Shown piece by piece: positions 22,387-45,413 of a stretch of DNA of 64,000 nt. Made by a program: the position numbers and the translations under genes. The notes beneath the pieces were generated by a model. The model saw nothing but the letters and a program-made list of their open reading frames with translations, was not told the DNA's origin and searched no databases. Each line of letters begins with the position of its first letter. Position 1 is the first letter of the stretch. Origin of the DNA: Ulva prolifera. Lineage: Eukaryota > Chlorophyta > Ulvophyceae > Ulvales > Ulvaceae. The stretch spans positions 8,610,807 to 8,674,806 of the forward strand of contig CM041200.1 of assembly GCA_023078555.1 (NCBI GenBank). Direction: 5' to 3'.

Positions 22387-22505
22387 CCTGTGGGTGTGCC
22401 CATGCGCTCGCTGGCGTGAGGTGTGTGGCCGTCTTGCTGTGCTCGGAATTCCGCTGCTTAAGCCGTGGTCAGGGCCGGCATGGGTCGGCCTCTGCGGTTG
22501 ACGGC

Positions 22506-22846
22506 GGCGTGGGTGTGCACTTGCATTGCCGGCGGTGGCGTGGGTGTGCACTTGCATTGCCGGCGGTGGCGTGGGTGTGCACGTGCATTGCCGGCAGTGG
22601 CGTGGGTGTGCACGTGCATTGCCGGCAGTGGCGTGGGTGTGCACTTGCATTGCCGGCGGTGGCGTGGGTGTGCACGTGCATTGCCGGCAGTGGCGTGGGT
22701 GTGCACGTGCATTGCCGGCAGTGGCGTGGGTGTGCACTTGCATTGCCGGCGGTGGCGTGGGTGTGCACGTGCATTGCCGGCGGTGGCGTGGGTGTGCACG
22801 TGCATTGCCGGCAGTGGCGTGGGTGTGCACTTGCATTGCCGACGGT
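22506..22846 (+). repeat. 31-bp minisatellite, 11 units
   Basis: The unit begins GGCGTGGGTGTGCAC, continues TTGCATTGCCGGC, and repeats with an exact 31-bp step from 22,506 to 22,846. Units differ at two positions (ACTTGC/ACGTGC and GGCGGT/GGCAGT), which fall into alternating higher-order patterns. Since 31 is not a multiple of 3 and the unit lacks stops, all forward frames stay open. The long open frames here are therefore not evidence of a protein. Confidence 0.95.
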
Positions 22847-22907
22847 GGCGTCACCAACGGTTGGTGTGCACTTGCACTGCCCCGGCGGTTCTACCTCCCT
22901 CTCCGAC

Positions 22908-25023: not shown

Positions 25024-26867
25024 TTGATTATAGTCGTATATGATATTGGGTGTTCAAGGCGTGGCGTTGTTTTGAGGGGCGTCCGGCGATCTGCAGATCT
25101 GCAAATCACGGGTGGCGGCTTAGGGTCAGGGCGTGCGCGTTGGTCGCGCGCTATGCAGTGAACAGAGCACGTGTGCTGTGCTTGGCAAGGGATCACCTGA
25201 GGTGCCATGCTGCATGTTGATATGAATGTCCGGCCAGAGGCCAACGCTGCATGCAGCGGGACAGCAAGTCTCTCTGAGGCTCGGTGTTGGTGTGCGGGGG
25301 GGTGCTGCCGTAGAACACAAGGTACATATACCTAGGTCATGACCTCATGCATGCGTGCCTCTCCACATGCGTGGTTGCGTTGAGCATGTGACAGAGCAGA
25401 GACACATGCGCATGCTGCGGCAGTGCTACTGCTCATGCATGCTGTGTGCATGCTGTGCTGCGGCAGTGCTGCTGCTCATGCTTGCAACCGACGTGCCAGC
25501 ACAGGGGTATGAGCAGGCTGGGTGCTCAACCTGCAGGCATGCACAGGTCGTTCGTGTGAATTAAATGCAGTGCTGCAGTGCTGCGGCAGCATGGCAGCAT
25601 GGGTTTGGCAGCACCTCTGGCCTCTGGGTCTGTACGACTGATTGTAAGACAGGTGCAACACAACGGTGGCATGCACACATGCAGCATGGAGGCCATGCTG
25701 CGTCTCCATGGTTCGGAAGGCACCACGGCGGGGCTCGGTTTTTGCTGTTCTTGCGGGCATGTACACTCTGAGCACATCATCACTGCCCAATTGCAAGCAG
25801 CATGTCAAATGTCAGTGAATAGTGGCTGAGATGTTGTTCCGGATCCGCAAGTTCAGGGGTCCATCGTGAGCTCTGCAGAGATAGAGGCCATATGCATACC
25901 GTTGTCACAGAGCCAGTTCCACCTCACTGTCTGGGATTCAGTTGGCTTGGAGGGTGGGGCAAGGGTGCTGACTGTAGCTGACAAACCCGAGGTTGAGATT
26001 GGAAAGGAAGCTGTGGAGTTGGCAGCTTGAGCGACAATGTGTAGGCTGGATCTTAGAGCCGTGGGCGTGCAGTGAATCCGTGCCAAGGTGAGCTGAAAAA
26101 GCGGGTGCAAGCTGCGACGCAGAACGTTGACCAAATGCCGCTGTGTAGATACCGTCGCCCTCCAGTGCCTTATATGAACGTGCGCGATCATCTCAGACGT
26201 CATCTTTCAGCAGGTGCCAGTGGTGGGACTGTCGCTGCCTGTGTTCGCGGTGTAGCGCTGCTTTGTTCGCCTGGTGTGTGCAGTTGTGCGCCATGGCTAC
26301 GATGGCGATGCCCTTAGGCGGGCCACACGAGCCGCAGCGCACATCTGTAAGCCAGGGCTGCATCGCAACGGCGATGAGTGGCGATTCGTGCGGTCGGCGT
26401 GCACACGGCGCTGGGCTCGTGGCTCATACGTGCCAATTTCTTGCGATGAGTACGGCCTTCACTGGGGTCTCAGGCAGGTTGGCATTACGCCAGCCATTGA
26501 CAAGCCTGTTTATGCGAACTTCATCGTTCATGGCATGTTAGATATCTACCAGTGCACTGTGTGAAGTGCGCTTCTCGTGAATAGAGTGTGCACAAGTTGC
26601 TCGGGTGCCTCTTTCGGAGACGTCCATGTCCAATATGGATACAGCTTTGCAATCATGCACACATTTTGAGGGCACTGATTGTTCGGTTTGATCCACAGGT
26701 CCGGGATACGCAGTCTGGTGTGTGAGGTGCTCGGAATCAGCCATCCACATTTCCAGAAATAGATTTCCGATCGGGCCCTACTTGTTAATCGCATTCATGT
26801 ATGTGTGCTGGCCTGCCACTTCGTTGCACACCACCTGGTGCCTCACATGATGTAGCTTAGACTCCTT
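25024..26867. other. Intergenic up to the CACTA element; weak exon-like segment
   Basis: The area is rich in TGCATG motifs. A direct repeat of GCTGCGGCAGTGCT around 25,415-25,470 is visible. A plus-strand frame at about 26,280-26,564 (ISCDEYGLHWGLRQVG, IDKPVYANFIVHGML) has protein-like composition but no partner exons, so it may be a relic. Confidence 0.35.
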
Positions 26868-26898
26868 CACTAGAAGAATGGCGACACGGTGAATCGGA
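26868..26898 (+). repeat. Left terminal inverted repeat of the CACTA element
   Basis: It begins CACTAGAAGAATGGCGACAC, then GGTGAATCGGA. It pairs with 45318-45348 at 27 of 31 positions, and a CTT target duplication precedes it. Confidence 0.92.
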
Positions 26899-27321
26899 GA
26901 GCTGACGTAGTGTGTGCGGAGGGGCAGTTGGAGAGCCTTCGGAGAATCGGTGGAGGCCGGACGTAGGTTGCTAGGAGTATCGGAGACTTGTGGCGGAGGT
27001 GGGGCAGAGGCAGGTAGGATTTTCCGATTCCCGTCCGGTACGCCCCAGGGCAACGCCTTTTGTTACTAGCCTGCCTTCGGAGCCCAACCGGAGGATGTAC
27101 GGAAGAAAAGACGGTTCCGTTGTGCGTCCGACGGAGGGCCTACGGACGCGTGCACTAAATTTCGGATCCGTCTCGGATCCGTATGGCGTCCGCCTCGGGG
27201 ATGCGGGAAATACAGGCTGGGCCGTAGGATTGGTGACCTCTTGACGTACATGTATCCGTCTGGCTTGAGATAAACTCACGTATGGTTTCGAGGAGTGTGC
27301 ACTTGTGGACACGCAATGCCT

Positions 27322-27352
27322 GACGTCATGGGCGTCATGGGCGTCATGGGCG
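27322..27352 (+). repeat. GTCATGGGC 9-bp tandem repeat
   Basis: GTCATGGGC is repeated three times and followed by a partial fourth unit inside the left subterminal region of the transposon. It may be a protein-binding cluster or simple slippage. Confidence 0.7.
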
Positions 27353-27692
27353 TTATTACCGGATCAGACCTGGTCGCGCACATGTAAGCGGAGTGCAGGA
27401 AGGATCGCGGTTTTGTGGAAGCATGATGTGGTTGTTTTCTTTGTTATGAGGCACGTGAACACGGGGCTGCAGTTGGCAATAGGCCTGCATTCATATGCTG
27501 TAGGTGCTTACATGGCGCGTGCTTTCCTTGTTCATCGCTAGATTCATACATAGCTCACACTCCCACACATTTCCTCAGGACAGACTCCCTGACATTCCGC
27601 GGACAGGACCGGGCAAAGGACCTATGTCTACGTACAGGCTGCAAGATGGTCCTGAGGTGGCCCAAATACAACCATACAATGCACTGGCATGT

Positions 27693-28781
27693 CTACTCGT
27701 CCTCGTCCGGGAAGTCGTCAATTAAGGAGTCTTGCACCTTTGACAACTCGGCCTGCATGCAATACCAGCTGCATGAGTGCACGGCTCTAATGCATTCGTG
27801 GTCTGAGCGACTGTCACACAAATAGTGCTACAATTGCAGGCATTGGTGTCACATGTTAGTTCAAGTGTATCGGGGTAGTGACATACCGTCAATACAGCAA
27901 CCTGCTGTTTTAATTTCTGCACACTCGCACCCTTGCTCTTGGGCTGATGCCTTGCCAGCTTAGCCTCGCAATCCTCTATCTTTTTCCGAATATCCCTGCG
28001 CGCTTGTAGGGCGGCCTCCTTCTCTGCCTTGGCCTTTCGCTTCTCAAGAGCTTTGTTGGACTTCTGCAATGTACAGGCGCTCTTACACCTGGTCTGATGA
28101 TGGGTGGGGCAAGTACAATCGGACTAGGCGTCAATTGGCACAAATCATAAGAGGACGTACCGGCGCTGCGGCTTGTAACTCCATCTCCGGGGACTCGCAT
28201 CGATCGTCTGCCCGCTGGGGAGAATCAGGCTCTTCCTCTTCACCCATCTGATCGTGACCCACCTCTTCCACGTCACGCAGGTGCTCACTGTCCTTATCAG
28301 CAGTGCGGTCTGCCCTTGGATCTAGCCCTGGCCGCCGGGGAGAAAAGTCAGCGAGCATTGTGCGCCGTCCGCTGTTGGAATGAGTGCCCCGTCTTCCTGA
28401 CTTCGATGCGGTAGGAGCCTGTACACGCATGGCTGCCTCGAATGATGGCACATGCCGCTCACACAGGCGTCCGTACAATCCCGGTACCACTTAATGGTCA
28501 ACCTCAGGCGGGCAGTACAGCGTGTGGTGAGATTGTACCTTCTCGGTCTTCCTTTGTCTCTTGCCCCGTTGGACGGGAGAGTCAGCGGTCCCTTCGAGGG
28601 CGCGCCGGGCCGCAGCAACCTTGGCGATTCCTTCGCACACATACTCACCGTCCTCCATAGCCCAGGCCTCGGGGGTTTTCATGGGTTCGCTATCGATAGG
28701 GAAGCGGTCTCCTCTCACGGTGAACTGCGCACGAACCACATTGGTTGGAACACAGTCGCCGAATGGCAGGTCAGTGGCCAT
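27693..28781 (-). CDS. Transposon accessory protein with coiled coil and acidic tail
   Basis: Supported minus-strand exons: 28781-28539 (81 codons, MATDLPFGDCVPTNVV), an exon ending at 28161 with donor CCG^GTACGT, 28063-27887 (59 codons), and 27752-27693 (20 codons including stop). The third exon is a Lys/Glu/Ala-rich coiled coil (ALEKRKAKAEKEAALQARRD). The last exon ends DDFPDEDE. The 3' introns are GTATGT...GCATGCAG and GTACGT...TTGCAG in phase 0. The exact start of exon 2 (near 28,490) is unresolved. It contains a Ser/Arg-rich then strongly acidic segment (MGEEEEPDSPQRADDR). The gene starts about 35 bp outside the left palindrome array and runs outward. By position it could encode the element's DNA-binding regulator, as TNPA does in Spm; this is inference. 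Confidence 0.6.
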
Positions 28782-28815
28782 GCAAGTGCGGATTCAAGCA
28801 GGCCGCGCCGCGCTG

Positions 28816-29290
28816 GAGTGGCCATTCGGCGAATGGACACTCCGGGCGCGTGCAGTGCAACACAATGCATGACGCGCTGGAGTGGCCATTCGGCGAATGG
28901 CCACTCCGGGCGCGTGCAGTGCAACACAATGCATGACGCGCTGGAGTGGCCATTCGGCGAATGGCCACTCCGGGCGCGTGCAGTGCAACACAATGCATGA
29001 CGCGCTGGAGTGGCCATTCGGCGAATGGCCACTCCGGGCGCGTGCAGTGCAACACAATGCATGACGCGCTGGAGTGGCCATTCGGCGAATGGCCACTCCG
29101 GGCGCGTGCAGTGCAACACAATGCATGACAGGCTGGAGTGGCCATTCGGCGAATGGCCACTCCGGGCGCGTGCAGTGCAACACAATGCATGACGCGCTGG
29201 AGTGGCCACTCGGCGAATGGCCACTCCGGGCGCGTGCAGTGCAACACAACGCAGGACGCGCTGGGGTGGCCATTCGGCGAATGGCCACTC
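28816..29290 (+). repeat. Left subterminal array: eight 27-bp near-palindromes, 64-bp period
   Basis: Each unit has the half-site GAGTGGCCATTCG, a central G, and the inverted half-site. Units start at 28816, 28880, 28944, 29008, 29072, 29136, 29200 and 29264. The 37-bp spacers (GGGCGCGTGCAGTGCAACAC...) are also nearly identical. The outer units carry one or two mismatches and the inner ones are almost perfect, as expected of an array kept uniform by unequal exchange. The same core in opposite orientation forms the right array. Confidence 0.97.
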
Positions 29291-29293
29291 CAA

Positions 29294-29620
29294 CTCTGAC
29301 CAAGGTGGAGGACATGCCTTGGTGTTCTGGAACACATTCATTGCCGCGAGCAGCTTCCTCTGCTCGCGGGCGCTGGGATTCCTCCGCAGGCCCGTGTTAT
29401 GGTCCCACGCCCGTCTCGCATACTTCCTGCACATCGGGTCACCTCCGTTTGGGCGGATACTGTGTGCTTCCCTTCTCCGCCACCGTTGGGCACGGTGTGA
29501 CGATACGTCACAGTACGGGGAACAGTGGGCTGAGCTCAGCACACTGTGGCAGGTGTCGTACACAGGCTGTCTTATAGTATATAAGCAGCTGGACCTTAAA
29601 GGGTAGACGACAGATCTCAT
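29294..29620 (-). CDS. Possible minus-strand exon next to the left array
   Basis: On the minus strand this reads HRAQRWRRREAHSIRPNGGD, continuing into CRKYARRAWDHN and REQRKLLAAMNVFQNTKACP, then runs into the palindrome array. The composition is basic and protein-like. It may be the 3' part of the gene that starts at 30596, joined by an intron, or an exon of its own. The continuation through the array is considered non-coding. Confidence 0.4.
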
Positions 29621-29666
29621 AGTATATAAGCAGCTGAACCTTAAAGGGTAGACGACAGATCTCTTC
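29572..29666. promoter_or_regulatory. Duplicated 47-bp block with TATATAA box
   Basis: The block containing ATAGTATATAAGCAGCTG and CCTTAAAGGGTAGACGACAG occurs twice in direct tandem with one or two changes. Each copy has a TATA-like core. It lies between minus-strand frames and 1.3 kb upstream of the transposase ATG. It may be a promoter; which gene it would serve is unknown. Confidence 0.4.
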
Positions 29667-29873
29667 TTCTATGTCTCTTGACTTCACAGTCGTTACACAC
29701 GGCAGCAGGTACGGCATGGGCACGGCAACAGGCACGGCATAACCCGAGCATCAGCAGAGGCACACTCTTTGGTCACGGCGTTCAAATGGGCGTGCTGGCG
29801 GTAGAAAGCATGATTGATATTAGTCGCAGCTTTGTACGCTTCACCTGTTCTGCCGACCTGTACACGATACCCG

Positions 29874-30596
29874 TCACTGCATACTGACCGCGAATGGCGA
29901 CTCTGACGCGCCAAGACACAACACTGACAGTCGGTGGCATGGGATCCCGTGGGCCTGACGGGGTGGTAGTGGACCCCAGTTTGCAATCACGTTGTTAGTC
30001 GGAGACAGCAGCCGTACCCCATGTGCAGCTTTGCCGAGTGCGTCCGCCCGCGTTTTCGTTAGAATACTCCCGACCCACACCTTCTCGTCGTCTGGGAGGG
30101 CCAGGTTCACTAGTCCCTGCACCTTCTTGCCTTGCGTGTGGGCATCGGCCATTCCCGCCACCTTGGATCTCATCCCTTCCGTCCACATCATCACCGCATC
30201 CTTCATCGTTTCCCACCGCCTGTCAGCTTCCGGGTCCCCAGTCAAGGCCGTAGCTGTGGAGTGTGCAGTGCCGACTGCTGCCGACGCTTGTCCCACGCTC
30301 CCTCTGCCCTTGCCCAGCGCCTTCACCAGCACGGGCGGCTTCAGCAGTCCAGCGATAGTGCCTTTCCTGAAGAAGTACCTTACGCACGTCATCAGTTTCT
30401 CGACACTGTCGATATCAACGGAGCTGTCTTTGTCGACGGTTGACGTCAAAGTCAACCCGTCGACGCCGGCACCTCTGCTCCACACGTTGCTGACCAGCAC
30501 GTCAAGCATCCCTGCTCCGTTGTCTGCGTCATCTACAACTTCTTTCTCGATGACGACGGGCGCCGCGCGGAGGAACGTGAACTGCAGGTTGGACAT
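29874..30596 (-). CDS. Transposon-encoded protein of unknown function (first exon)
   Basis: An open frame of 240 residues starts MSNLQFTFLRAAPVVIEKEV at 30596. It contains an acidic N-terminal region, then SVEKLMTCVRYFFRKGTIAG, a Gly/Ala-rich stretch, and GDPEADRRWETMKDAVMMW followed by a Lys-rich segment. The last 40 residues look less protein-like, so a donor probably lies before 29,950 and the gene may continue at about 29,620-29,294. It diverges from the transposase gene, whose ATG is 338 bp away. No family was recognised. Its position inside the element makes it a transposon gene. Confidence 0.55.
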   Translation of the reverse strand: MSNLQFTFLRAAPVVIEKEVVDDADNGAGMLDVLVSNVWSRGAGVDGLTLTSTVDKDSSVDIDSVEKLMTCVRYFFRKGTIAGLLKPPVLVKALGKGRGSVGQASAAVGTAHSTATALTGDPEADRRWETMKDAVMMWTEGMRSKVAGMADAHTQGKKVQGLVNLALPDDEKVWVGSILTKTRADALGKAAHGVRLLSPTNNVIANWGPLPPRQAHGIPCHRLSVLCLGASESPFAVSMQ

Positions 30597-30933
30597 GGTG
30601 GATGATTAGACAAAGCGGAATTAACACACGTCTATGGCCCGTACTGTGGATGGTCGTATCGTAGGCACAGCTAACATATCGCGTCATTCGCACATGCTTT
30701 GCTGCTCCGTGCTTTGAATGGTATGCCGATGTAGCGTCGTCGCGCGGTCCGCCTTCAAAGGTTTGGCTGCCTCGATACCCCGGCGCCTCGCCTGGGATTG
30801 TGGCGTCAGTGCGAACATGGGATGCGACAGGGAGGTCTTCGTGGGACGTAATGCCATCATAGGGACGACAAACACCAGAGGCCGCGCTATCGTTGAACAT
30901 CTTCACAAGAATGCTTAAGTCCGGCTGGCTACC
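30597..30933. promoter_or_regulatory. Divergent intergenic region of the transposon
   Basis: This 337-bp stretch separates the minus-strand gene (ATG at 30596) from the transposase gene (ATG at 30934). By arrangement it should hold both promoters. I see no clear TATA box in it. Confidence 0.4.
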
Positions 30934-33900
30934 ATGGCTGGTTCGGCGGATAGACTGAAGAGGGCGGAGGTGAACGAATTGGTTGCCAAAGCGAACTGTA
31001 AGCGCCTGATCCCTCCCGAGCCGACGGGGAAGGAACCGTTTAAATACCAGTGTCTAGGCTGTGGTGAGAAGTTTCAGAGGCACAACACCGCCCAAAACCA
31101 TCACGGTCCTTGCAGCCGTCGACTGAGTGCAGCAGCCGCATCGCGGAGAGCCGCTGGTGGACACGACGACGCGGGCCCAGACTCGAGGCCAGCCGCTGGC
31201 CCGACCTCCGCTACTGCCGATGATGACCGCAGCGGCAGACACGACGGGGCCGGTCCCTCTGGGAGATCCCCATCACCTCCAGACATGGGGGGTCCCCCCG
31301 ATGAGCCTGCCCACTCCGACGACCTCTTCGACGTGCGTACCTTCGGTAGTTGACCGTGCTAAGTCCCGGTTTGCCTGATCATGATGCAGATCGGCATGAC
31401 AGCGGCTCGTGATCACGATGGCCATGGGTGTCAGCGCTCCTGTCCCTCAGCTGTTTCTTGCCTGCTCGCCCAATGCAACTCCGAGGTGTTGGGATTGTGT
31501 ACAGCTGCCCCCACCGTCCGAAAGCGATCACGCCGAGGGCCCCGCACAATATTCAGACGACGACTCAGACTTCTCAGACGCCGACTCCATTGCCTTTTCA
31601 TCAGAGACGGACTACAGTTCAGACGAACCTGAGGTGTGTCCACATCTTCCATTACATACAATGCTGTGAATCAGCTCGTACTCCTCCGTAGGACACGCCT
31701 GATCGTTGCACATGCAGGAGGCGGATGACGACGGCCCGGACCCCACCACAGGGGCCCGGAAGGGCACGGGCGCCTGGTGGCATGAGCAACGCATGAAACA
31801 CATATACACCGGCAGCGCCCTCACCGTCCTCACAGTGTGCATGTGGATTGCCCAGTTGAAGAGCCTCTTCCGCATACAAGACGTGGTCGTCGACACGTGG
31901 TGCAGGTTCATACATTACCTCCTGCTACCCGATGGAAACTTTTTCCCTCCCTCCTTCCACCTCGTCAAGGCGGTCTTGGGTGTCCCGCCTGTTTCCTCTG
32001 TAACGCGCCACGTTTGTCCCCAATGCTGGACCTTGTTCCCCCCACTTGATCCGGGTGACCATCACCAGCATCTGGCGGACACCTGTGGAACCCCAGGTTG
32101 TTGTCAACAGCGATTTGATGTCGATCTCACAGGGAAGGGTGTCCCTGTGCGCTCAGCTTTCTTCTTTGGCGAAGAAGCCTCGCTGAAAGACCTCCTCCTG
32201 CAGCCGGGGCTGCTGACGAGCGTACGGGAAGCCAGGGCAACAGCTGTCAAAGACAAAAGCAGCTTCCTCAACTCCCCGGCTGGAAAGGCCCTCAACCTGG
32301 CGTGTGGGGGCAAAATCCTGAAGCCAAAGCATAGGGAGCTTGTCCTGCTGTTCAGCCTCGGTGCGCTCCACCTCCTCATCTGAGCAGGTGGCTATCACAC
32401 CGCATCGGCACGCCTATGCAACTCCGCGAATTGAGACCCTCTGCCTCGTGTCCCGACAGTCGCTTTTCCTGCAGGGGGGGACGGGGCCCAGCTGTACGTC
32501 AACAAGCAGCACGGTGTCACAATCTGGGGGATCCGCCTGCTTGACCTGCCGCCCCATCTCTCAAGTACCAATGTGGCCTGGATTCCCCTTGGAGTGGTGG
32601 AGGGGCCATCCGAACCAACATGCATGGCCAGCATTCTGGAGTCCGTGATGGCGTTCTTCAAGAAGCATGATCCGGGCGCGCACTCACCTTGTCTTCCTGG
32701 TCACTGCCGGGTGATGTGTACAGTTCCCGATCACGTAGTGTCTGGCCCCCGCACCACGTGATGGCTGGAGTGCAGGAGCTGGGGGTGAGGCACTCAAAAT
32801 CACACTGCCCGGGGGCGAGGTACTGCACGTGTGGCCGGTGCTGTGCTGTGTGGAGGGGGATATCCCGTGGCTGGAGAAACTTACCAACAGCATCGGCCAT
32901 ACAGCGAAGAGGGCATGTTTCAGATGTGCCCAAAACGGCGTGTGGGATTACCCCTCCAACACTGTCAGGTCCGGGGTGTTCACTTACGTTTGTAATCTCT
33001 TTCCTGCTAGTGCTGTCTCACGTACCTGTCCTGCTTATAACTGCTATCATGCATGCCACACAGGTGGATGGGACACCATCACCCTCTGCACCAGCCCGTG
33101 CCCTGCTATGCCGACGGGCCTCTGAAAGGGAAATCACTCACCCCGGAGGAAGAAGCAGCATCCTCGGCTGCAAACCCCCGGATGGTGCCTGGGAGTGTAC
33201 AACCGGACACTGGTGGCAACCCCCCACGGACCGCGTGGTCTGAGCCCCGGCATGTGCAGCCCTCGTCCTGGGAGTCGGACAACCGCTTGAAGTACTCGGC
33301 GGCAGAGATCCTGGCCAGGGGCCGAAAGGGCGACACGATCGCTGCCCAGGTGCAATTCCATCTACAGTGTCATCGAATGCAAACTGTGCACATGCGGCCT
33401 ACTCCCCTGCCCCCCCTCTGTGCGCCGCAACTCATCTTGCCAACCCCTCTGACACCGAACAAGCGTCGTTGGTGATACGGCTCTTTTCTTGTGGTAACCC
33501 TGGCCAGGCCTGTGGTAATGCAGGTCCACGCACCAACCTTGAAACGCTATTGCGACCGGAAGACACCGAAGTCCAGGGCCAAGCTCGCCAAAGATGAGTA
33601 CAAGCTACTGGGGGTGAAAGGTTCTCCGCTGTTCAGTCTCCTCTCCTACTTCAAGTACGAGCACCCCCAGCCTGCTGCTGCCTGCCTCGCCCTTGAGTCT
33701 GGAGTTGATTATGAATTACGCTGTGGCGTTGCAGTCCCTGCCATTTCTTCCGGCTCGGAGTGGCGCACGTGTTTCTGCTCGGTGTGCTCATGGACTTCTG
33801 GAACCAGTGGCTCCCTCCCCTGGGCCGGAAGAAGTCCAAGAAGGCGCCATTGACTGGCCTCCGGGCCCTGTTCCGACTGCCAGAGGATGTCGTCAAGGCG

Positions 33901-35450
33901 ATAGCTGCCAGAGCGCCCCACATCATGCAGACCTCTCTTTTCAAGAAGGTGTACACCGACATCACCAAGTGCGCAGTCCCATCGCCTGCACACCCTGCTC
34001 GCATCCGAGGCTGCGCCATTTTTCGGACTGTTACTTGGACACAGGAACCATGTGCACTCCTGTTGAAGCATCCCGTCTGAGTCAGGGTGACTGTTTGCGT
34101 AGGCACCGCAGTCGCTGGCTCATGGAAGACTGGCTGGCCTTCACCGAGACATTCTCGCTGTACCTCCTGCACGATCTCCCGTGGAAAGCCTCCGAGAAAC
34201 GCATACGCAGCGTGTTTGAGCAGTCGTGGGGGCTCCTGCGAGCAGGGGCCCTCTACTTTCTCAGATATGAAGAGGGTCAGCACACACCGGCCCGAATCAC
34301 GGAAGCACAGCGATTGCTGCTGCAGTACGCCAAACTGGCGGAAGAGACGTTTGAAGGGGCTGCTCTCAGCACGTACAAGCTGCATCTGGCGGCCAGTCAC
34401 CTACCGGATCAGGTGAGGTGCTGCGGTGCATCCTTCTTCAGTCTTGAATTCTGGATCGAGCGGATGGTCCAGCTCCTGAAGAGACTGATCAAGTATCGAT
34501 CGACTCGTTGCCCTGAACAAGTATATGTGAGCGATGAACTGCTGCGCCGCACATGTATGCGGCTGTTGCATGATGCAGCTTCACTGCCTGCTGCCATGAC
34601 TTCACTGTCAGATGCCATAGCGACTGAGAAACGCCGGCGGGCACGAACTCGCAATGGAAGATCCGCTGACGGGGAGCAACCAATTGACAGTGACCGGATC
34701 ACCGGCAGGGTCGTGGGGGTGGGCAGGGCCCTAGCCCAGTCTGAGACTGCGGCGGTCCTCCCCCTGGACTTTGTGGGAGATAATCTGACAGGGTTGCCGT
34801 ACCTCCTCTTCCATCAGGACTCCCTACAGGACGAGGGCTGGCCAACTCACAGTCGCCTGGGGGTTGGTTATGCACGTCAGGTGGCCATCCACCGAGCTCT
34901 GGGCCTGAAGGTGGATGGCAGTGTTGATGAGGCTCGCCGTGAGGGCACAGTGACACTTATGAAGTTCCACCAGATGCAATCCCGCGTTGCAGACATGTTC
35001 AGCTGCGCGCAACAGTGTACGCAAGGGAAGAAAGACAACAAGTGGTGCCTCTTGAGGTACCTCATTGGGGGGGACGGGGACGGGGGTGGCGGGACAGTGA
35101 CGTATTTCGTCGGGGAACTGCAGTATTTCACGAGGGCGTGTCTGCAGCCCCGGGATGGCGTGTGTTGCGTGTCATGTGTTGCGAAACCAAACCCATTGTA
35201 CCTGGGGGTTGCTGATCTGTATAATTGCACCTTGCCAGCCACCCCGGGAGCCCGCGCCCCAGATCCCGTGTTGAAACGTCCCCCCGAGTTTTTCGGTGTG
35301 GCGGGTGCAAACAGGGGGTCTCGGGCATATGCCGGCAGATACGTCGTAGACTTGGACGCAGTTCCATGCCAGTTAGTTCCAGTCCGGAGGGTTGCACAAA
35401 ATGTGCAGTATTGGTCCACAGCGAACAAGGCTTCTGGCCGAACTGTGTAA
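30934..35450 (+). CDS. CACTA transposase, Tnp2/Plavaka-like
   Basis: About nine exons: 30934-about 31345, an exon ending at 31633, 31718-32360, 32475-about 32690, 32776-32968, 33064-33349, 33524-33654, 33735-33968 and 34103-35450. Most introns agree in phase; the ends around exons 1-2 and 4 are approximate. Roughly 1,200 residues. The N-terminus has a C2HC finger (Cys40, Cys43, His56, Cys60), then an acidic linker. The core matches Tnp2 landmarks in order: SALTVLTVCMWIAQLKSLF; a Cys cluster (VCPQCWTLF...TCGTPGCC); LFSLGGDGAQLY; LCCVEGDIPWLEKL with ACFRC; the LLSYFNPCHFFRLGVAHVFL block; and FFSLEFWIERMV near the C-terminal third. Candidate catalytic acids are the Asp of GDGAQL, the Asp of EGDIPW and the Glu of WIERM. 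It should cut and join DNA at the CACTAG ends. No stop interrupts the exons, so it may be active. Confidence 0.88.
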
Positions 35451-35801
35451 TTGTACAAGACCACCGCCAAATGCCTTCGTCAGCAATCCCAGTTGATGGC
35501 AATCCCAGTTGTGCCCACTTTGCATTTTCCATACTTGCCAGAGGGCCACGGGGGGGACCAGAGTCCCCGCCAGTGCGTGTCTACAGGCGCCACCCTCGTT
35601 GGAGCCATACAACCCACGTCCTGCGGCGTGCGCTCGTGGCCACTTTCGCTCCCTCTTCAAGCGTCGGTGTCGTCTGTTAGTGCACGTCGCAGGTCCAGCG
35701 GACAGATTAATGGTAGGTGCAAGGTCTGATGCAGTTGATGTAGGAAGACTGCGTCGCGATAGCGCGGATAGAACGTTTCTGTGCGGTGTACAGTCCACAC
35801 G

Positions 35802-38413
35802 ATGTGTGCCAGTATGATAACGGACGGGGACTTGCGGGCCTACCTTGCGACAATTCGTAGTAACCGTCAGTGTGACTCGTCTTTCAAGCGGTTCCTGGAA
35901 ACCGCCCTGAAGGGTAACTGGACGCCTGGCCAGCCGATCCCAGCACTAACGATCTGTACCCGGAAGCCCGGGTTCCCGATAGACTTCATGGCCAACGCCT
36001 ACCTATTAACGACTGTAGATGTTACCATGGTGGGCTCTATAGTGGAGGCCGGGGGGGAAGGGTTAGACATGTACCTGGACTCGATCCGGGCGATGAAGGA
36101 GAGTGTAGAGGCTTCACACACCGCCGACCACGCCGCGCGGGTAGAGCAGAAGATGAAATCCCTCTGGCACGACCTCCGGATGATCGCATTCGAGCGCGCG
36201 GTCCATACTAAGGCCCCGTGCAAGCCAGAGGAGATCGTGCTGTACCGGTCTTGCCAGGTCGGCGCGGGCATCATAGAAGACGCTGGCGGCCTGCTCGAAC
36301 GTGTGCGGCACACGGGCGGGACAGACTTGATCTGCGAGTGGATACAGTGCGAGGCAAACTTCGCACGGACTCCAAATCCTAAGTGGCCTGTCTCCGAGGT
36401 TCATGTGGGGCCTCTGCAGGCGCCCATGTTGGCGTTACAGCTAGAGAGGGGTGGGGCGGGCGGGTCGCACGGTGAAGACCGGGGGGGACCCGACGCCGCT
36501 CTTGGGGGCGTCACCGGCACCGCCACAGCCCCAGGACCGGGTGCAGCCGCTGCCCCGCCGCCAACAGAGTCCAGCGGCACCAGCATAGGCCCGGGTGACC
36601 GAAGGCAGGGGCGTGGCAGACACACCCATCCGCGGCAGCAGCAGCGGGTTGGCGAGGCACGAGGGGCACGGGCTCCGGGTAGAGGGCGCGCAGATCGGGG
36701 CACCAGTCTTCAGCAGCCCGCCCGAATTAGGTGGCCCAGGGGGGCACGGGGTGCCGCACGGGGGGGGGCTGCGGCCGTAGCGCAGATCCTTAGCCGGGAT
36801 CATCCGCCGCCCGAGGGGCCGGCTGCAGTAGGGGTTCCCCCTGTGGCGTTGCCCCAGCAGTCCCCACAGCCGGTTGGCCCTGTGAGGCCGCCGTCGCCAT
36901 CGCGGACCAGTGGCTGTCTGCCGCCGCCGCGGCTGGACGAATCCGCTACAGCTATCGAAACCAGACTAGCTGCCGCAGACGCGGGGCCGGCAGGTCCCCC
37001 GGATGATCCCCCCGCCTGGGAAGGGCCCATTGCGGACCCCCCTGCCGAAGGAGACAATAAGGCGAGGTCGGACACCGATGCCAATCCGGTTCCATCCGTC
37101 ACCCCTGATGATGGCCCTAGCGAGGGGCCCCAACCTGCCCCAGTCGGTGCAGCCATCTGCTCCATCGGCGAGGCCCCCCCCCCGCTCCGGACCTCTCCGG
37201 AGCCTGCTTGTCCAGCACCCGGTCAAGAGGGGCCAATCCAGTCCGCACCTCCTCCTGCCCCGGACGTCCCGGAGCCTTCGGCCGCCGGTAAGGATAAGCC
37301 GCGGCTGTCAGCATCCCTCCTGGCACACCCTCCGGTGGTGCCGCCGGATTGGGTCACAAACATCCCTGCAAAGCCTCCGGGCAAGCTGAAGCAGCAGTGG
37401 GGGTCCACTTCCAAAGACGCCGGTACATCCGCTGCCGACACAACGCAGGATGCAGCTGAACCGACCGTAGTGTCCTCCGACGACGACGATGGGGGGAGGT
37501 TCCCGAATGTGGTGGGGGGTGTGATCTTGCAACTAGGGCATTTTGGGGATGCTCGGGTGTCTGTGACAGTCGGTCTGGAAACCCTCGCGAGAGGCTGGCC
37601 CACCGCATGGGCCGAGAGTACACACGTTGACTACGCCTTGAGTAGGTGTGTCGCACTGGCCGGGCAGGGCGTCATTGCAACGCCTAGCCAGAATATGGCT
37701 GGGATATGTACTGGGGATGCGGACGCAGACTGGTCAAGCGGACGCACCAGATTTATGGGGCGGTGGTTGTTCAAAGCTCACACCTTTGAGCAAGAATGTG
37801 TCTTAGTCCCTGTCCCCCGGAACGGCCACTGGATGTTGGCTGTCATCTGGCATCCATGTACGCTCTCCCCGCCGCAGCAGACTTTGTGATGAGGTAGCCT
37901 GCTGTGCGTAGGACTGTCATATTGCCCCCCGCCCCCCCATACCCCCCCCCCCCCCCCCCCACAGTAGGCCCGCTGAACGCCACTACTGACGTTTCAGCCA
38001 TAATGCAGGGCGTATGAAGCAGAATAAGGCGCCGACTGTGTCGTTCTTTGACAGCCTGATCAGCGCCGGCTCAGGCACCGCTGAACGGGCCAGGGACGTC
38101 TTGAGTGAGGCTCTGTGCATGGCGCTGGACTACCCCGAGGGCCGGGCCCCCTCCCCCCCGGAAGACCCCGCATCTACCACCCGGCCTCGGGTAAAAGCAG
38201 TGGGCCGCCCACACAACGTCCGACTGGCCACCCGGCCGACCGAATCCACCGCTAGGATAACCCTGAAGTTGGCGAAGGTACAATGCCCACGTCCCACTGT
38301 TCTCCTGCGATACCATCCACACAGATGCTGTCCTCTGACCCTTGACAGTCGCGCATATTACCAAATGGACTGCAATCGTTGACACAACAGCACCCTCTGA
38401 ATGCGCCCACCTG

Positions 38414-38451
<38 letters not shown>

Positions 38452-39175
38452 TTCTCTGCCCGAACCCGGACAGCGTACTGCTTTGGAACCACCCCGCGTC
38501 CAAGGTCTGCGGTGGACTTGATCTGTTGACGTAACATTAGCATTATAACCGTCCCCCAATGGTGTCCAGGTAGGAGGAACCCCGCAGCAACCAAACGGCC
38601 ACGACTGCGGGGTTTTCACATGCATGCTGGCCGACGCTGTGTGCGACGTCATCCACCGCATGCGACAGGAGGGGGGAACTGTGTTCAGCAGTGACATCCA
38701 CGGTGTCGAGGCGACTCGAAGGGTCCTGTTACTCACCAACCGCGTCAAGGTGCAGCACGCGGTGCTGTACCGTATCGTCCTCACTCGAGCCCTCATTCAA
38801 GAGTGGCACCGAGGCGGGAGAGGGGGCGACAAGTTGGGACACTTATCAGTCGAGGATGCCACCAAGATTCTAGCCGACGCTAGGTGGGACCGCCACCTCC
38901 AGACACCGCCCTTCAAAGACTTTTCCGAAGAGCAGCTGAGGTGCGGGCGAGTCGATGCACCTGCCATGTCCACCGCAGCATTGTCACCATCTATCCTCTG
39001 GCACCCCCTTGGAGGCCCGGTGGGGACCTTTGCCTGATGAAGCTGCTGGATCTGCAGGGAGTGGTACCTGCAGGCGCGCTTTGACGCCTTCCTGGAGACT
39101 GCGCGCCCGGTAGTGGCTACCCTGAAACAGCAGTATAACAAGCTGATGGCTAAATCGCTGAAGACGCGTTTATGA
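35802..39175 (+). CDS. Transposon-encoded Ulp1-like (C48) cysteine protease, 937 aa
   Basis: Four exons join in exact phase: 35802-37857, 38009-38277, 38570-38940 and 39058-39175. All introns are GT-AG and the sum is 938 codons. The N-terminal 210 residues are globular (ITDGDLRAYLATIRSNRQ, SCQVGAGIIEDAGGLLERV) and of unknown fold. A Pro/Ala/Gly-rich linker of about 350 residues follows. The C-terminal domain carries the Ulp1/SENP catalytic set: His676 in NGHWMLAVIWHP, Asp700 in SFFDSL, Gln782, and Cys788 in QQPNGHDCGVF. Gln lies six residues before Cys, as in SENP proteases. The protein ends with a basic tail (YNKLMAKSLKTRL). Known relatives of CACTA and KDZ elements also carry Ulp1 domains, thought to remove SUMO-like tags. 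Introns 1 and 2 contain long poly-C tracts. The ATG at 35802 is preferred to an upstream in-frame GTG. Confidence 0.9.
37942..37960 (+). repeat. Poly-C tract in Ulp1 intron 1
   Basis: Nineteen consecutive C residues, preceded by shorter C runs, lie just upstream of the acceptor of the first intron. Confidence 0.95.
38415..38448 (+). repeat. Poly-C tract (34 C) in Ulp1 intron 2
   Basis: Thirty-four consecutive C residues lie inside the second intron of the protease gene. Length may be uncertain because such runs are hard to sequence. Confidence 0.95.
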
Positions 39176-39843
39176 GACACTGAAGGGTGGCATCCGGGAG
39201 ATTCCGACGCCACAGGCCAGGTGATGCCATTTCGCTGCAGCTGCACTGAACCTCGGTGTCTCGACTGCAGCGCTGCGGGCTGCTGCCAGGCAGGCACAGC
39301 TGAAACTGTTCTGAACCCATTGTCTACAGAAGACAAGACGCCACAGTTTGCGTACGGAGTTCGACTCAGTATTCTAATCGTTATTTCGTGTAAAAAATAC
39401 TATCAATCCTCAACGGCTACACCAGGTCGGCGCTGTAGGATTAGAGGGGTACAACGGTCAACCCCTGCATTATAGCAGAGCGTATGGCACTAGTAGACGG
39501 GGGTGCATCACTGTACAGTGATGTGGCCCACCGTCCTTGTATTACCGTCGAAATGGGAATAATTTTGACGTATTCCCGTAGCATCTGCATTAACAAAGTT
39601 ACTATGCTGATACTGCCGGGAAGTTCTACGCTTGATGGCTTAGCGGACACTGCACGCCGCATTAAAGTGTACTCCCACGCAGCTGTGCTACCGGCACCCC
39701 CATCCCCCAGGGACTTAGCTCATCAACCAGTATTCACCACAGGCCCCCATCCCCCAGGGACTTTGCTCATCAACCAGTATTCACCACAGGATCCGGGGCT
39801 GGGACGGCTTCGCTGCCCTCTGTAGAATTGCGTCCCTGCACGG
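39176..39843. other. Convergent intergenic region of the transposon with a 50-bp tandem duplication
   Basis: It lies between the stop of the protease gene and the 3' end of the minus-strand gene. A block containing CCCCCATCCCCCAGGGACTT and CTCATCAACCAGTATTCACC occurs twice in tandem at about 39,698-39,789. No gene is supported. Confidence 0.6.
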
Positions 39844-42800
39844 TCAACATCCCTGGGTACTGTACGTCTGCCTTGGGAGCGGGAGTAGAGAATTGGCCCA
39901 CCACGGCCATGCGACAGACTGGCCAGGGGGGGTGGCGGGGGTTGTTTGCTTGGAGGAGCGCACCGTCTGAATCAGTGACACAACTTCGGATACAGTGCCT
40001 TCATCTGGTTGGAGCCCGTAAGCCGATATGATCGACTTCATGCGGACTAAGCGCTCCGCTTTAGTCAAACCCATGCCGGCGGTGCTTACCAACATCAGGT
40101 CCACTGCCACGACAATGAGCCGCAGTTGAGCTGCACGCCCGACCGAACCACCCGGAGGGGATACGAAAGTGGCGGCCATGTGCAGGGTGGTCTTCTGCTC
40201 CTCGAAGGACTCGTCCACGGTTAGACGAACTGACCCCGAACTATCGTGCAGGTAGATTATTTGGGACGGCCTAGTCTCAGGGTCCTCTGCCGCCACTTCG
40301 TGCTCAGCGCAGCGGGGGTCCGCTGGGTCAGAACGAACCGAATCGTCATCCAAGCTGATGGATCCGAAATCGTCTGAGGAGTGGTCTTCCGGATACAGCA
40401 CTGCCTCAGCGAGAGCATCTGCAAACATGGCGTCTGCTACCGGATCGTACACCAGACCCCCACTTCCTCCCGCACTGTCCGGTTGCATAAACCCTGTAGG
40501 TGTCGGTGCCGGTCCCCCCGCCGGCACGGGGACAGGCAGGCCAAAGGGGCCCACTTCTGGACGACCTGTAGCGTCCTGACCCTGCAAGGGGATCCCCGCA
40601 ACATCCCCCACAACTTCCCCCCCCACTGGTGGGTTCAACCCGCCACGCGCCGCCATGTCTGCCATAGCTTCTGCAGCCCAGCCCCCCCCAGCCCCCCCCC
40701 CCCCCCCCGCCCCCGCCACCGTTGGGCTCAACCCGCCCTGCCCCGCCAAGCCTGCCGTAGCCTCCGCGTCTCCCCCCCCCGCTGCCCTCCCCTCCACGGG
40801 ACTCAGTCCCGCCTTCAGCGCTGTGACTGGCAATGCCTCCGCAGCCCCCCCAGTGGCTGCCACCCTCACAGTGGGGTTCAATCCCGCCTTCGCCGCCGAA
40901 TCTGCCACCGCCGCTGCTTTCCCCCCCAAACCACCCCCCGCCCCACAGTCAGGCTCAACCCCCCTGTCACTGCCGTGACCGGCAGAGCCTCTGCGGGACG
41001 GCCACACGCATCCCCCCCCCGGCTGGGAGACTGCCCCCCCCTGCCCCGGCCCCGCAGCGGCACCCGGGCCGAGCACCTCTGGCCCTGTGGCCACCTTGGA
41101 CGCAGGGCGGGTGGTGCCCCTGTCCCCACCGGATTCCTGAGTGTCGCTGCCGCCGGTGTCGGTGCCGCCAGCGGCTGTGTCCCCCTTCTTGGCTGGTGGC
41201 AGGCCCATCTTACGCAGCAATAGCGACTTGGTACGTGCTTTAGCTACCTCGTGCTTCCCGGTTCGTCGACGGTTGCGCTGGCCAGAGGCAGGGGTGTCAC
41301 CGGCACCCCCTGCCCCAGGGGTAGGCTGGGGTGGTACGACAGGCGGCTGCCGCAAGTCCTCGGGCAGGGTGGCGAGGATACCTTCGGGAATGTTATTGAG
41401 CTCCGCCCTGTAAAATTAACCAGAGTCGCCAACAACAAACAGAACACGCTGGTAGTCCCAGGGCCCGTGCATGTCAACTCTGGATCAACTAACAGCAACA
41501 CATGCTCCCGTTGGTGAAAGAACAGGAGGATCTGATGGCCAGAACTCAGACGCATACGACTGAACATGCAGGGAGCATGTTCTGCAAGAGACACTCCTGG
41601 TCACTGTAGGGACCATCACCGGGGGTTCGCACATGTAACACTTTGAGCTCTGCATCCCCTTGGCCAAGGACAGCTTGGCAAGATCTTCAGCGCCGGCATA
41701 ATCCCAGTCCTTGATCCCGGGGAATGATCCTGGCCTAAGGCGGACAACCGACGGGGATGCTGATTTCCCGGAACTGCTCCCCGCGATGTCTTTCTGCACC
41801 ACGCTAAGGTACCGCCAGCTCCTGAGCGCCCAGTGCCACAGCGTGTGGGGCGGGCACAAGGGGATCAGGTCGTCGGCCAGCCTCTTGACGGGCTGACCAT
41901 ACCCCGATTTCACCAAACCTGGATGCACCGCGTGGTTCAGACGAGAGCACTGTCTGCAAAGCTGAGTCTTGCCCCACCTCGGGGGCTACAGCAGGTAACA
42001 ACTGAATCCTGAACAATGGAGACGAAAAGGTTGGTAGCGCACTGCTGGTATTCACCGTGCACACCAGGATGGCGGCAAAGGCGGGATCCAGGAGGCTGGG
42101 CTCCAAGACTGGAATGTCCTGCACACGCCGCCTCTCCAGGACAGGCGCCCCCGGGTCCCCTGTCACAGCCGCGGCGACGAGGCGCCGATAAGCATGCATG
42201 AACAGGTGGACCCCATTCGTGGCGAAGGACGCCAGTTCCGTAGAGGTCAGCTGCAGCCCTTCACATGCCCACATGATGTGGGAATTGAATGCCTGGACAG
42301 AACTCCACGCCGGACGGAGAGCTCGGGCTACTCGGTCACCCTGCACGGCGAGATCCAGGTATACTCAACAATTGGGGACGGGCAACAGCAAGCATATACA
42401 GCTCTGCACAGACACGCAGCTCTCGATGGCATGTACAGGTCAGTGGCACCTCGCACCTCTGCACAATCAAACAGAGGGTGCTCCGCCGCATAAGCCACTA
42501 CCCAGGGTCCTAAGTTGTCGAGCGCGGCGACAAACTCACCGAGGATCTTGACATCCTGCACGCAAAGAGACCTGACTACAGAGCTCGAGCCCAGGCCGGT
42601 GACAGGCCAGTCTTGAGGGATCAACAGAAACAGGGACAGAAACAGGGCCCGGGGCACCATGGCCACGATCATGCATGCGATAAGGCACAAATGCCGGGTA
42701 GAACAGGACAGCACACAGACCAACAGGCAGTCCCCCTGTCCATGCCGGAGTCATGTTAAGTCACCGGAGCGCACGAAAGCTTTGATGAGGTCCGAGTGCG

Positions 42801-44001
42801 AGGTGTGCATGTCGACTAACACCGGCGCGCCCGAGGTCAGCTGGAAAACCGGCTGTGCAGGGACCCCGTTTGTGTTCGCCAACATCCTGGGGCACCGGTC
42901 CCCAATGTGCCGTGCTATCGACTGACACGGCTCGAGCTCATCTTCATCCATGCTCTCGAGCTGGGCGCAGTGTGCGTGTTCATACAGCACCCACGCCACC
43001 AGCGGGTTCAGGTCCTCTGGGAGGTTGGATGTGGGTCTCTCCCTGCTCCTGGAGGACCCGTGACCCTCCACCGCGGGAGAAGCCTTTCCGGCTGTCCACA
43101 ACTTGGTGCGATGAGGGGACAGCCCAGACATGAAGGAAGCCCAGGCCCACACGACGTGTCGTGGGGTGGAGCAATGAAACACTGCACCGAGAACACCCAT
43201 GTCACTTGTGCACGAATGCGGAGGCCATGCCGCGCACGATGTGGGGACAGCATACGTGACTGCGTTACATAACAACATGCGTGCAGAGAGCACACCGTCT
43301 GGAGGCGGGGGGTCCGGGCCTTTGCGCTTTTCCCCCACGTTGATCTGAGGAAGATCGAACCGCTGGCGAAGTTCCGGATCTCTCTCCGCTGTGATTCTGG
43401 TCTTAGGGAGGCCAGACTCACATACGTGGCCGGTGATCTCAACCTGCACAAATGGCGGCACTGAGTCCTGGCCCCACTCCACAGGTTAGCTGGGCCCCGT
43501 GTCAGTGGACTGGCAGTAAATGCAGATCGCGCTCAGCTGATCCACCAGCACACCGGGCACACACACCTCTTTCTTTCCCAACAGGGGCTTCCACCGCCGG
43601 GGCACAAGGCAGCCATGTGGGGTCTTCCCTGTGCCCTCCCACGAGGACACGAGCATTGCCTGCTCGTGCAGCCAGGAGGAGAGCGCGAGACAGGTAGTGA
43701 CAATCACTTCCTTGGCCGTACCCAGCTCCCTCGTCCGACTCTCCACCACGTCGTCTCGCAGAACCACCCCCAGGGACCACCACACCGACACCCCAGGACC
43801 GGACAGTGGACCGTCGTTGCGGCCGACGCGGGCACGATCCGTAAAACGCCCGTCCCTTGAAATTAAAGTACCCACTACAGGGATTCTCTGAGTACGCATG
43901 CGACCAACGAGTAAGTCTCCGCTGCGAGCGGAAGTAGGCCCATTCTGGGTACTTGACAGTCCTGCAACTGCTGCAGCATGGCGCGGATCCATTGTATGCA
44001 A
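39844..44001 (-). CDS. Large multi-exon transposon protein of unknown function
   Basis: Minus-strand coding blocks follow one another: 44001-about 43510 (GDLLVGRMRTQRIPVVGTLI, CLVPRRWKPLLGKKEVC), 43482-42751 (FVQVEITGHVCESGLPKTRI, NPLVAWVLYEHAHC), about 42700-42500 (LGPWVVAYAAEHPLFDC), 42346-about 41990 (AFNSHIMWACEGLQLT, GVHLFMHAYRRLVAA), 41928-41485 (LWHWALRSWRYLSVVQKD) and about 41410-39844. The last block starts ELNNIPEGILATLPEDLRQP, is basic (RNRRRTGKHEVAKARTKS), passes through about 200 Gly/Ala-rich residues, then an acidic part and a structured end (LHMAATFVSPPG, LTKAERLVRMKSIISAYGL). Splice junctions between blocks are not all resolved, and two genes are possible. No domain was recognised. 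It converges on the protease gene and belongs to the element. Confidence 0.55.
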
Positions 44002-44246
44002 ATAAATATTTTGGTCACTGCCGGAAGCGGAAACTGGTCACGAGCAGCGCAGCTAGGCGAAGGAATACGACGCCAGCAGGGACGCGGTGCACTTAAACGC
44101 CAGGTGAACTCCAAACGCTGGAAGTTAGCCGTATCATACACTATATCCACCGTTTGTCCCTTTCATGAAGCACGACCCAAGTTGGGGGCCCCGAATGCAA
44201 AGGCGCCTGATCACTCGGGTAGGGCAGGGTGAGATCAACCGCGCTG

Positions 44247-44783
44247 GAGCGGTCATTCGCCGAATGGCCACTCTGTACCACCGCATGCATTCGTGTCCAG
44301 GAGGACGGGCGCACGCCTTACCTGGAGCATGATGACGTAACTCCGCCAGAGTGGCCATTCGCCGAATGGCCACTCTGTACCACCGCATGCATTCGTGTCC
44401 AGGAGGACGGGCGCACGCCTTACCTGGAGCATGATGACGTAACTCCGCCAGAGTGGCCATTCGCCGAATGGCCACTCTGGACCACCGCATGCATTCGTGT
44501 CCAGGAGGACGGGCGCACGCCTTACCTGGAGCATGATGACGTAACTCCGCCAGAGTGGCCATTCGCCGAATGGCCACTCTGGACCACCGCATGCATTCGT
44601 GTCCAGGAGGACGGGCGTACGCCTTACCTGGAGCATGATGACGTAACTCCGCCAGAGTGGCCATTCGCCGAATGGCCACTCTGGACCACCGCATGCATTC
44701 GTGTCCAGGAGGACGGGCGCACGCCTTACCTGGAGCATGATGACGTAACTCCGCCAGAGTGGCCATTCGCCGAATGGCCACTC
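44247..44783 (-). repeat. Right subterminal array: six 27-bp near-palindromes, 102-bp period
   Basis: Cores start at 44247, 44349, 44451, 44553, 44655 and 44757. The half-sites equal those of the left array, but the central base is C and not G, so the array is inverted relative to the left one. Spacers of 75 bp (TGGACCACCGCATGCATTCG...) are nearly identical to each other and unrelated to the left spacers. The outermost 44247 unit has two changes. Confidence 0.97.
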
Positions 44784-45317
44784 TGGACCACCGCATGCAT
44801 TCGTGTCCAGGAACCTATGGGCACGCTTTCCCGGCCACCTTTCACAGGGCGACGACCAACACTACAAGGACTGCTGCCGAGCCTGACATACGGACCAACG
44901 CTATCTTGGGCGATGCAAAAAGTCACCGCTGTTGTGAGCCTGCCTCCAGCTTCCTGCCGCTTCGTCTCCTGCCCAAAGTCGATGTCAGTTGCCATGAGTA
45001 TGGGTCCACATATACCTGCACCGTGTCCAATCCAGTCGTTTCCAGATCCGCATGTAGTAATAAAGTAACCAATAGTATCATTCGATCCACTGTCAGCGCG
45101 GGCTTGGCCCGAAGTGACCTCGTATCATGGCAGCCGGCGCAGACATGCGAAGGCCACTTGCAGCGGTAAGGTACGTCCACAGTCCGGCGGAATATACCTG
45201 GGTCGGCGGATGGTTCGGTGCCAAAGTCCAAGGTCCATCCGACTGCTCGCATCCGATGACGTCGGAGAGGTATCAGAGAGTGAACGGACTTTCGGAATCT
45301 GGCGGACGACACCCGGA

Positions 45318-45348
45318 TCCGTTTCAGTGTGTCGCCATTCTCCTAGTG
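45318..45348 (-). repeat. Right terminal inverted repeat of the CACTA element
   Basis: It ends GTGTCGCCATTCTCCTAGTG, the complement of the left end, and is followed by the CTT target duplication at 45349-45351. Confidence 0.92.
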
Positions 45349-45413
45349 CTTGTGTCACAAGGGCAAAGGTGGAGGGGCACATAGCAAGAAGCCTGGAGGG
45401 GCCTTTGTTGTGT

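Follow-up and report, generated by a model that had tools for sequence, protein, structure and literature searches.

Two CACTA transposons are close precedents for the element described here, which lies in a 64,000-nucleotide stretch of the Ulva prolifera genome (GenBank assembly GCA_023078555.1, contig CM041200.1, positions 8,610,807 to 8,674,806 of the forward strand; hereafter the window) and carries an array of 27-bp dyad-symmetrical sites near each end. In Tpn1 of Ipomoea nil, one subterminal region holds 122-bp and the other 104-bp tandem repeats (PMC5105172). Tgmt*/Tgm1 of soybean has palindrome-forming subterminal repeats, 4 at the left and 24 at the right, whose motifs diverge between two families of one genome, and co-evolution with a TNPA-like protein has been raised for them (PMC2613891). 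In maize, the subterminal repeats of Spm/En are bound by the element protein TNPA and act as cis-determinants of excision, the protein being regulatory as well (PMC2613891). Addition of a ULP1 region is described for CACTA families and proteins of grapevine and rice (PMC2528002). Statements on all these systems refer to the accessible part of each source.

The window element resembles Tpn1 in being a large CACTA element with 3-bp target duplications and two subterminal arrays of different unit length, here 64 and 102 bp. However, the accessible part of the Tpn1 account states no common palindromic core of its two arrays (PMC5105172), whereas one 27-bp dyad is shared here, and the left array lies about 2 kb from the end, in a predicted gene intron. 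With Tgmt*/Tgm1 it has in common subterminal palindromes, two unequal ends and a motif that diverges between families. The soybean stem-loops, formed by 17-bp motifs, are confined to the outermost 159 and 732 bp, whereas regular arrays of 27-bp dyads are found here beyond the short repeats. The motif of En-1 is 12 bp long (PMC2613891), compared with 27-bp dyads and a second set of CGGA repeats adjoining the ends in U. prolifera. In contrast to the CACTA proteins that carry ULP1 as an added region, the window element has its Peptidase_C48 match in a separate frame farther downstream, and in a diverged family of the same genome (family 2) the homologue of that gene, gene P, lies close to the right end on the opposite strand.

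The kind of layout is therefore already known from Tpn1 and Tgmt*. The variation on it consists of the long dyad shared by both arrays, a left array set inward of the ordinary repeats and within a predicted intron, and the occurrence of another dyad at both ends of another family. No account of such arrays was found among the open-access papers listed, where searches for subterminal repeats of green-algal CACTA elements returned none and searches for palindromic CACTA subterminal sites returned nothing matching. The manner in which subterminal sites and the proteins reading them change together has been posed as an open question for CACTA elements, in the part of that source available (PMC2613891). 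One genome with several families (transposase identity from 57% up to 100%), whose clean 27-bp sites vary at both ends together between families, and with many short copies, offers matched proteins and sites that could be exchanged in a swap test, and lets one ask if it is the sites that determine which element each family mobilises.

Two dyad arrays in a large CACTA element

The arrays were delimited by tandem-repeat and core searches, and the element by its mapped ends and near-identical copies elsewhere in the genome.

26868 to 45348, plus strand: CACTA/EnSpm-type element, 18,481 bp
26865 to 26867, unstranded: left target-site duplication CTT
45349 to 45351, unstranded: right target-site duplication CTT
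26868 to 26887, plus strand: left terminal inverted repeat CACTAGAAGAATGGCGACAC, with an internal 10-mer identical to the core half-site at 9 of 10 positions
45329 to 45348, minus strand: right terminal inverted repeat CACTAGGAGAATGGCGACAC
28816 to 29290, unstranded: left array, eight 27-bp dyad cores at a 64-bp period
44247 to 44783, unstranded: right array, six 27-bp dyad cores at a 102-bp period
26868 to 27267, unstranded: left short subterminal repeats CGGA/TCCG, 21 in 400 bp (8.8 per kb mid-element)
45179 to 45348, unstranded: right short subterminal repeats CGGA/TCCG, 11 in 170 bp (8.8 per kb mid-element)
29891 to 29903, plus strand: isolated half-site CGAATGGCGACTC, in sequence between the core half and the terminal repeat

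Tandem repeats were detected with a 64-bp unit at 28809-29291 and a 102-bp unit at 44247-44812, and the shared core is GAGTGGCCATTCG-N-CGAATGGCCACTC. At up to three mismatches, exactly 14 sites were found in the window and none in 100 shuffles, confirming the eight left and six right cores of the initial annotation. The half-sites, described there as identical, are so in most window cores; those at 28816, 29200 and 29264 have one mismatch each and that at 44247 has two. The central base is G in all eight left cores and C in all six right cores. At least 12 of the 13 dyad pairs are formed by 14 of the window's 27-mers; 13 of these are cores and the remaining one is at 6808. An isolated long perfect palindrome around GAGGCGGTGC-T-GCACCGCCTC occupies 6803-6840.

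The left array starts 1,948 bp inside the left end and the right array ends 565 bp before the right end. Both stand inward of the CGGA/TCCG clusters, which look like the usual short subterminal repeats and to which the arrays are additional; these clusters at the tips rule out the arrays as the sole subterminal repeats of the element. The spacers, initially considered unrelated between the arrays, align only loosely from left to right (31 matches in 76 columns, a figure without a control). Nevertheless, CATGCA or TGCATG is present in all 14 spacer samples (hand-chosen from arrays of both families, non-independent, with the 93-bp type left out) and in 5-14% of equal-length stretches of the window. 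Directly right of the left array, a 45-bp tandem duplication (29570-29663) carries TATATAAG in each copy.

The terminal repeats are 20 bp long and read CACTAG(A/G)AGAATGGCGACAC, with one base different between the ends. The boundary at 45348 reads CTAGTG and has its inverted counterpart at 26868; when the DNA right of the array was used for the search, most of the copies listed lost homology at 45348 or no more than a few bases from it. Terminal repeats beginning with CACTA, a 3-bp duplication and subterminal direct and inverted repeats, three marks of CACTA/EnSpm, are present. Exact terminal repeats of this type (family 1) occur 99 times in the genome, and the 3-bp flanks are equal in 10 of 15 paired copies, one of the five unequal pairs being 31 kb apart and maybe not one element. 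By its ends, duplications and copies, the window element is a large CACTA-type transposon, as had been proposed. Three copies (L006, L008 and L009) have no differences over 1,900 bp, unlike flanks and eight left cores each; being identical at different sites, they point to recent movement. Membership of KDZ (Zisupton), raised by the Ulp1-like gene, was ruled out by the 3-bp duplications and CACTA ends, the KDZ duplication being 8 bp according to the accessible part of the source (PMC12730594).

Two further observations concern insertion sites. Compared with L008, L005 (contig C28) shares its 8-bp left flank, GACTCCTT, with the window copy, and is perhaps a duplicate or second haplotype of the window locus. 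The right ends L036, L045 and L048 have a common flank, CGGGCCGC, and a further CACTA-like transposase (about 48-64% over its pieces) is encoded in the adjacent DNA, a setting of nested insertion with duplication.

The core among copies and diverged families

Arrays of family 1 were read at 30 of 39 left-region places, with L066 as a thirty-first, and at 30 of 40 right-end places. The left query contained one core, so these loci were picked for having the region, and the right query contained none. Cores number 3-10 at each of the 30 left loci and 2-7 at each of the 30 right loci. Perfect dyads make up 130 of 193 left and 109 of 143 right cores, and in eight of the 143 right units a change on one arm is compensated on the other (GAGCGGCC..GGCCGCTC, giving GAGC..GCTC). 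The central base, taken initially to give orientation, does not do so across copies: both bases occur at both ends (left, 155 G and 38 C; right, 99 C and 44 G). Spacings are mainly 64 and 102 bp, with 63, 65, 70, 93 and 110 bp in some loci. Overall, periods range from 60 to 77 bp on the left and from 67 to 110 bp on the right, so that the earlier argument from fixed spacing is not supported; helical phasing by fixed spacing is ruled out by the periods of 60, 61, 63-67, 70, 71, 74, 93, 102 and 110 bp.

The distance between copies is 0.027 on the left and 0.033 on the right for the core arms, compared with 0.042 and 0.053-0.076 for the spacers. The arms are thus 1.6 to 3.3 times less distant, although cores were chosen by similarity and their distance is biased low.

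Of the 40 left tips, 35 have the array region within 7 kb, three were unread and two were found on reading to lack it. These two, L065 (3.43 kb, flanks CAC/CAC) and L076 (paired with L054, about 17.7 kb, flanks TCT/TCT), keep about 690-720 bp of the left end and three right cores each. Among the best 40 of 94 candidates, the deletion junction of L065 is present in L065 alone, so no later movement of an array-less copy was seen; the L076 junction was not searched. The two copies show that the array can be lost with the ends intact, which does not in itself demonstrate that such copies move. Recently mobilised copies without arrays, named in the initial annotation as counter-evidence, were not clearly found, since the recent L006, L008 and L009 keep theirs, but L065 and L076 do lack the left array. 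Their deletions break at 27557 and 27588, within 31 bp of each other.

Among the best 72 of 333 candidates, transposase places fall at 85-100, 72-78, 66-68 and 57-58% identity in the genome, some being fragments. In the L066 subfamily (about 77% DNA identity), four left units at 70 bp have the centre GCG, with arms exact in one unit and carrying 1-3 changes in the others. In L068, of the 68% family, five units follow one another at 66 bp, each with one or two changes, and one of the five bears a compensated change, GAGTAGCC..GGCTACTC.

The right end L067, assigned by position to the 67% transposase, has a single core that is exact at 27 of 27 positions. Alignment by blastn was limited to the gene, 64 bp surrounding the core and the final 177 bp. 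Upstream of the core, 163 of 318 columns match (20 shuffles: mean 0.46, maximum 0.51) and downstream 213 of 392 (mean 0.48, maximum 0.52), with 29 of 41 in the 40 bp right of the core, so that the flanks are barely above shuffle level. Homogenisation cannot explain the conservation of this core, because it is a single copy without an array. Together with the lower distance of the core arms, it supports the earlier proposal that selection acts on the core; the companion proposal, that each array was homogenised separately, was also supported.

Family 2, with transposases at 57-58% identity, has ends of its own (CACTAGGAGAATGGTGACGT/..CAT), and both its arrays are built from another 27-bp dyad, GAATGGYTGGTGG-S-CCACCARCCATTC, at 60-77 bp on the left and 67 bp on the right. 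The left array of L069 has 21 units at 60-63 bp, and the right arrays at 67 bp have 5 units in L070 and 12 in L074. The cores of the two families agree at 8 of 13 half-site positions in register, as counted by eye and without statistics. Matches to family-2 cores were also listed at a third site, 134-202 bp past the transposase frame (G000:C1:1790419, 9300702, 10278393 and 10278461).

On contigs C1-C4, at least 28 inward-facing adjacent pairs of family-2 ends lie less than 30 kb apart, at least 11 of them spanning 6.0-8.6 kb. The 11 short pairs come from contigs C1-C3 among the matches listed; ten have one end of each type and C3:9222678-9231273 has two left-type ends. Again among the matches listed, all 11 have a left-array match. 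Ten were read, with 7-23 units each, and 113 of their 133 units fit the family-2 core exactly; two of the 133 are degenerate right-side units of L071. Within a single array, three spacer lengths alternate with the core unchanged. The pair L073/L072 has flanks ACT/ACT, and L071 has GCCC on both sides with unequal 3-bp flanks (CCC and GCC). In L071, read whole, exon 4 of gene A was the only hit, and the transposase, P and C frames gave none. The listed transposase matches include none in the 11 short pairs (best 72 of 333 candidates). For the ten other short copies, shortness is better evidence than an unmatched transposase.

Genes beside the arrays

The predicted genes of the element are as follows.

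27725 to 30596, minus strand: gene A, several exons (tblastn of window frames to L066, L068, L069, L071 and L073)
30934 to 35447, plus strand: transposase gene, predicted exons, C-terminal part 33618-35447 (families at 57-100% amino acid identity in its own genome)
35772 to 39034, plus strand: gene P with an Ulp1-type end (PF02902, 22 bits, cut-off 20.7, in 38549-39034)
42754 to 43992, minus strand: gene C, ATG at 43992-43990 (protein matches; DNA conservation to L065 and L067 ends at 43992)

The left array is located inside a predicted intron of the leftward gene A, at about 28726-29318 with edges placed by eye, between two exons conserved in L066 and L068 according to tblastn of the window frames. 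In family 2 the left array adjoins the homologue of exon 3 in L069, and the exon-4 homologue lies across it in L071 and L073. On the right, 255 bp separate the ATG of gene C from the start of the array in the window. In L070 of family 2, a leftward gene-P homologue has its aligned part some 216 bp away from the right array. The neighbour of this array is accordingly C in family 1 and the P homologue in family 2.

The last exon of gene A looks coiled-coil-like by eye, and the N-terminal exon of the transposase looks zinc-finger-like. DUF4218 scored below its cut-off of 27 in the transposase, with E 0.16 (12.3 bits) in the window and 0.0034 (17.7 bits) in family 2, and PF02992 was not matched in the frames scanned. 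A genome-wide DUF4218 search gave a single place, not the window element; this match, at G000:C2:11892188-11892403 (25 bits, cut-off 27), is perhaps another CACTA family. The segments 35772-37886 and 38549-39034 presumably form one gene P. Scans with Pfam and NCBIfam profiles left most element frames and ten other window frames without an informative match, and a PDB sequence search with one transposase frame gave nothing informative. Codon-position counts were uneven and common to related copies, and were uninformative.

Possible roles of the arrays

The reading we favour, at slightly better than an even chance, is that the arrays are clusters of cis-acting sites for a TNPA-like, element-encoded dimer acting on transposition. 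Such a protein would bind the 27-bp dyad as a dimer, and many copies would load near both ends, where they would help the two ends to meet or transposase to load; bound protein may also govern the genes beside the arrays. Candidates for the binder would be the product of gene A or the zinc-finger-like first exon of the transposase. Three patterns of sequence favour a binding protein that acts in cis near the ends: retention of the array in short copies, the lone L067 core and the joint difference of both ends between families. One core at both ends despite unlike spacers, the compensated changes of right units and of L068, the alternating spacer lengths around an unchanged core and the GAATGG(C/T) common to terminal repeat and core also count in its favour. 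Protein binding, its element-encoded origin, the dimeric state and the effect on transposition are what we infer from these patterns.

Several observations weigh against this reading. CGGA repeats are already present at the tips, therefore the arrays need not be transposase-loading sites. The left array may be dispensable, as L065 and L076 have equal duplications, unless it was lost after insertion. Dyad symmetry is imperfectly kept in family 2, where just 5 of 17 right units are perfect and 9 of the 12 right units of L074 carry a change on one arm. Compensated changes number 0 of 193 in family-1 left, 0 of 46 in family-2 left and 0 of 17 in family-2 right units. Among the short copies, L084 is exact in 2 of 9 left units, and the right array is degenerate in L071 and L072 (3 units, 5-7 mismatches). 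Absence of the transposase was tested by direct reading only in L071, and its absence from the other short pairs is weak evidence because only 5 of 17 longer pairs have a listed match either. Frames of gene A match no DNA-binding family in the Pfam/NCBIfam scans, and an AlphaFold model of its exon 1, built with five sequences, was unusable (predicted local distance difference test score, pLDDT, 36).

The arrays might instead be transcriptional control sites of the element's own genes, such as enhancers, silencers or autoregulatory operators, which is possible but doubtful. Their positions fit such control, which may be a second role: the left array is located between gene A exons in family 1 and by the exon-3 and exon-4 homologues in family 2, the right array is close to gene C in the window and to the gene-P homologue in L070, and TNPA of Spm regulates its own gene too (PMC2613891, accessible part). 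Nevertheless, the neighbour of the right array switches from C to P between families while the array stays near the end, and the left array of L071 is clean though gene A exon 4 is all that was detected there. A role of the core as RNA, in short hairpins of the gene A intron or of a right-end transcript serving processing, silencing or protein binding, is very improbable. Each core could form a short hairpin given its dyad, and both the intronic position of the left array and the compensated changes would suit pairing. However, the coding part of no detected gene takes in the right array, changes limited to one arm (70 left, 55 right) leave some pairs that are not G-U, and no Rfam match was found in the window at gathering thresholds.

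Neutral tandem repeats, in which the palindrome itself drives slippage and conversion and yields uniform arrays without a binding function, are unlikely. Homogenisation within arrays, degenerate edge units and variable copy number (3-10 left, 2-7 right, 7-23 in short family-2 copies) are as expected from such a process, and the cores, selected by similarity, are only 1.6-3.3 times below the spacers in distance. Neutral homogenisation accounts for uniformity, but not for the retention of arrays in short copies, for the untandem core at 27 of 27 in near-shuffle DNA, or for the joint difference of the ends, with one new core at both ends of family 2 beside unlike spacers; three spacer lengths alternating around one core also argue against it.

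The favoured reading of a dimeric binder can be extended, tentatively and with rather low probability, to two layers of end recognition. The CGGA tips would form one, and the inner dyad arrays, read by a dimeric protein whose specificity co-evolves with them like lock and key, the other. Terminal repeats contain GAATGGC in family 1 and GAATGGT in family 2, and because terminal repeat and core have GAATGG(C/T) in common, one domain may read both tips and arrays, the core being a mirrored pair of end-like sites that would decide which protein moves which element. The family-1 terminal-repeat 10-mer has 9 matches to the core half-site, equalled by 111 of 20,000 random 20-mers of the element; as a further point against, these draws overlap one real half-site. 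The resemblance weakly suggests that one domain reads both.

Two other tandem repeats were noted in the window. A 31-bp repeat in 11 copies at 22502-22851 contains TGCAC(G/T)TGCA; a CACTA-type end pair with a good match was sought around it and not found. At 53893-54548, a 138-bp repeat is present in 4.8 copies.

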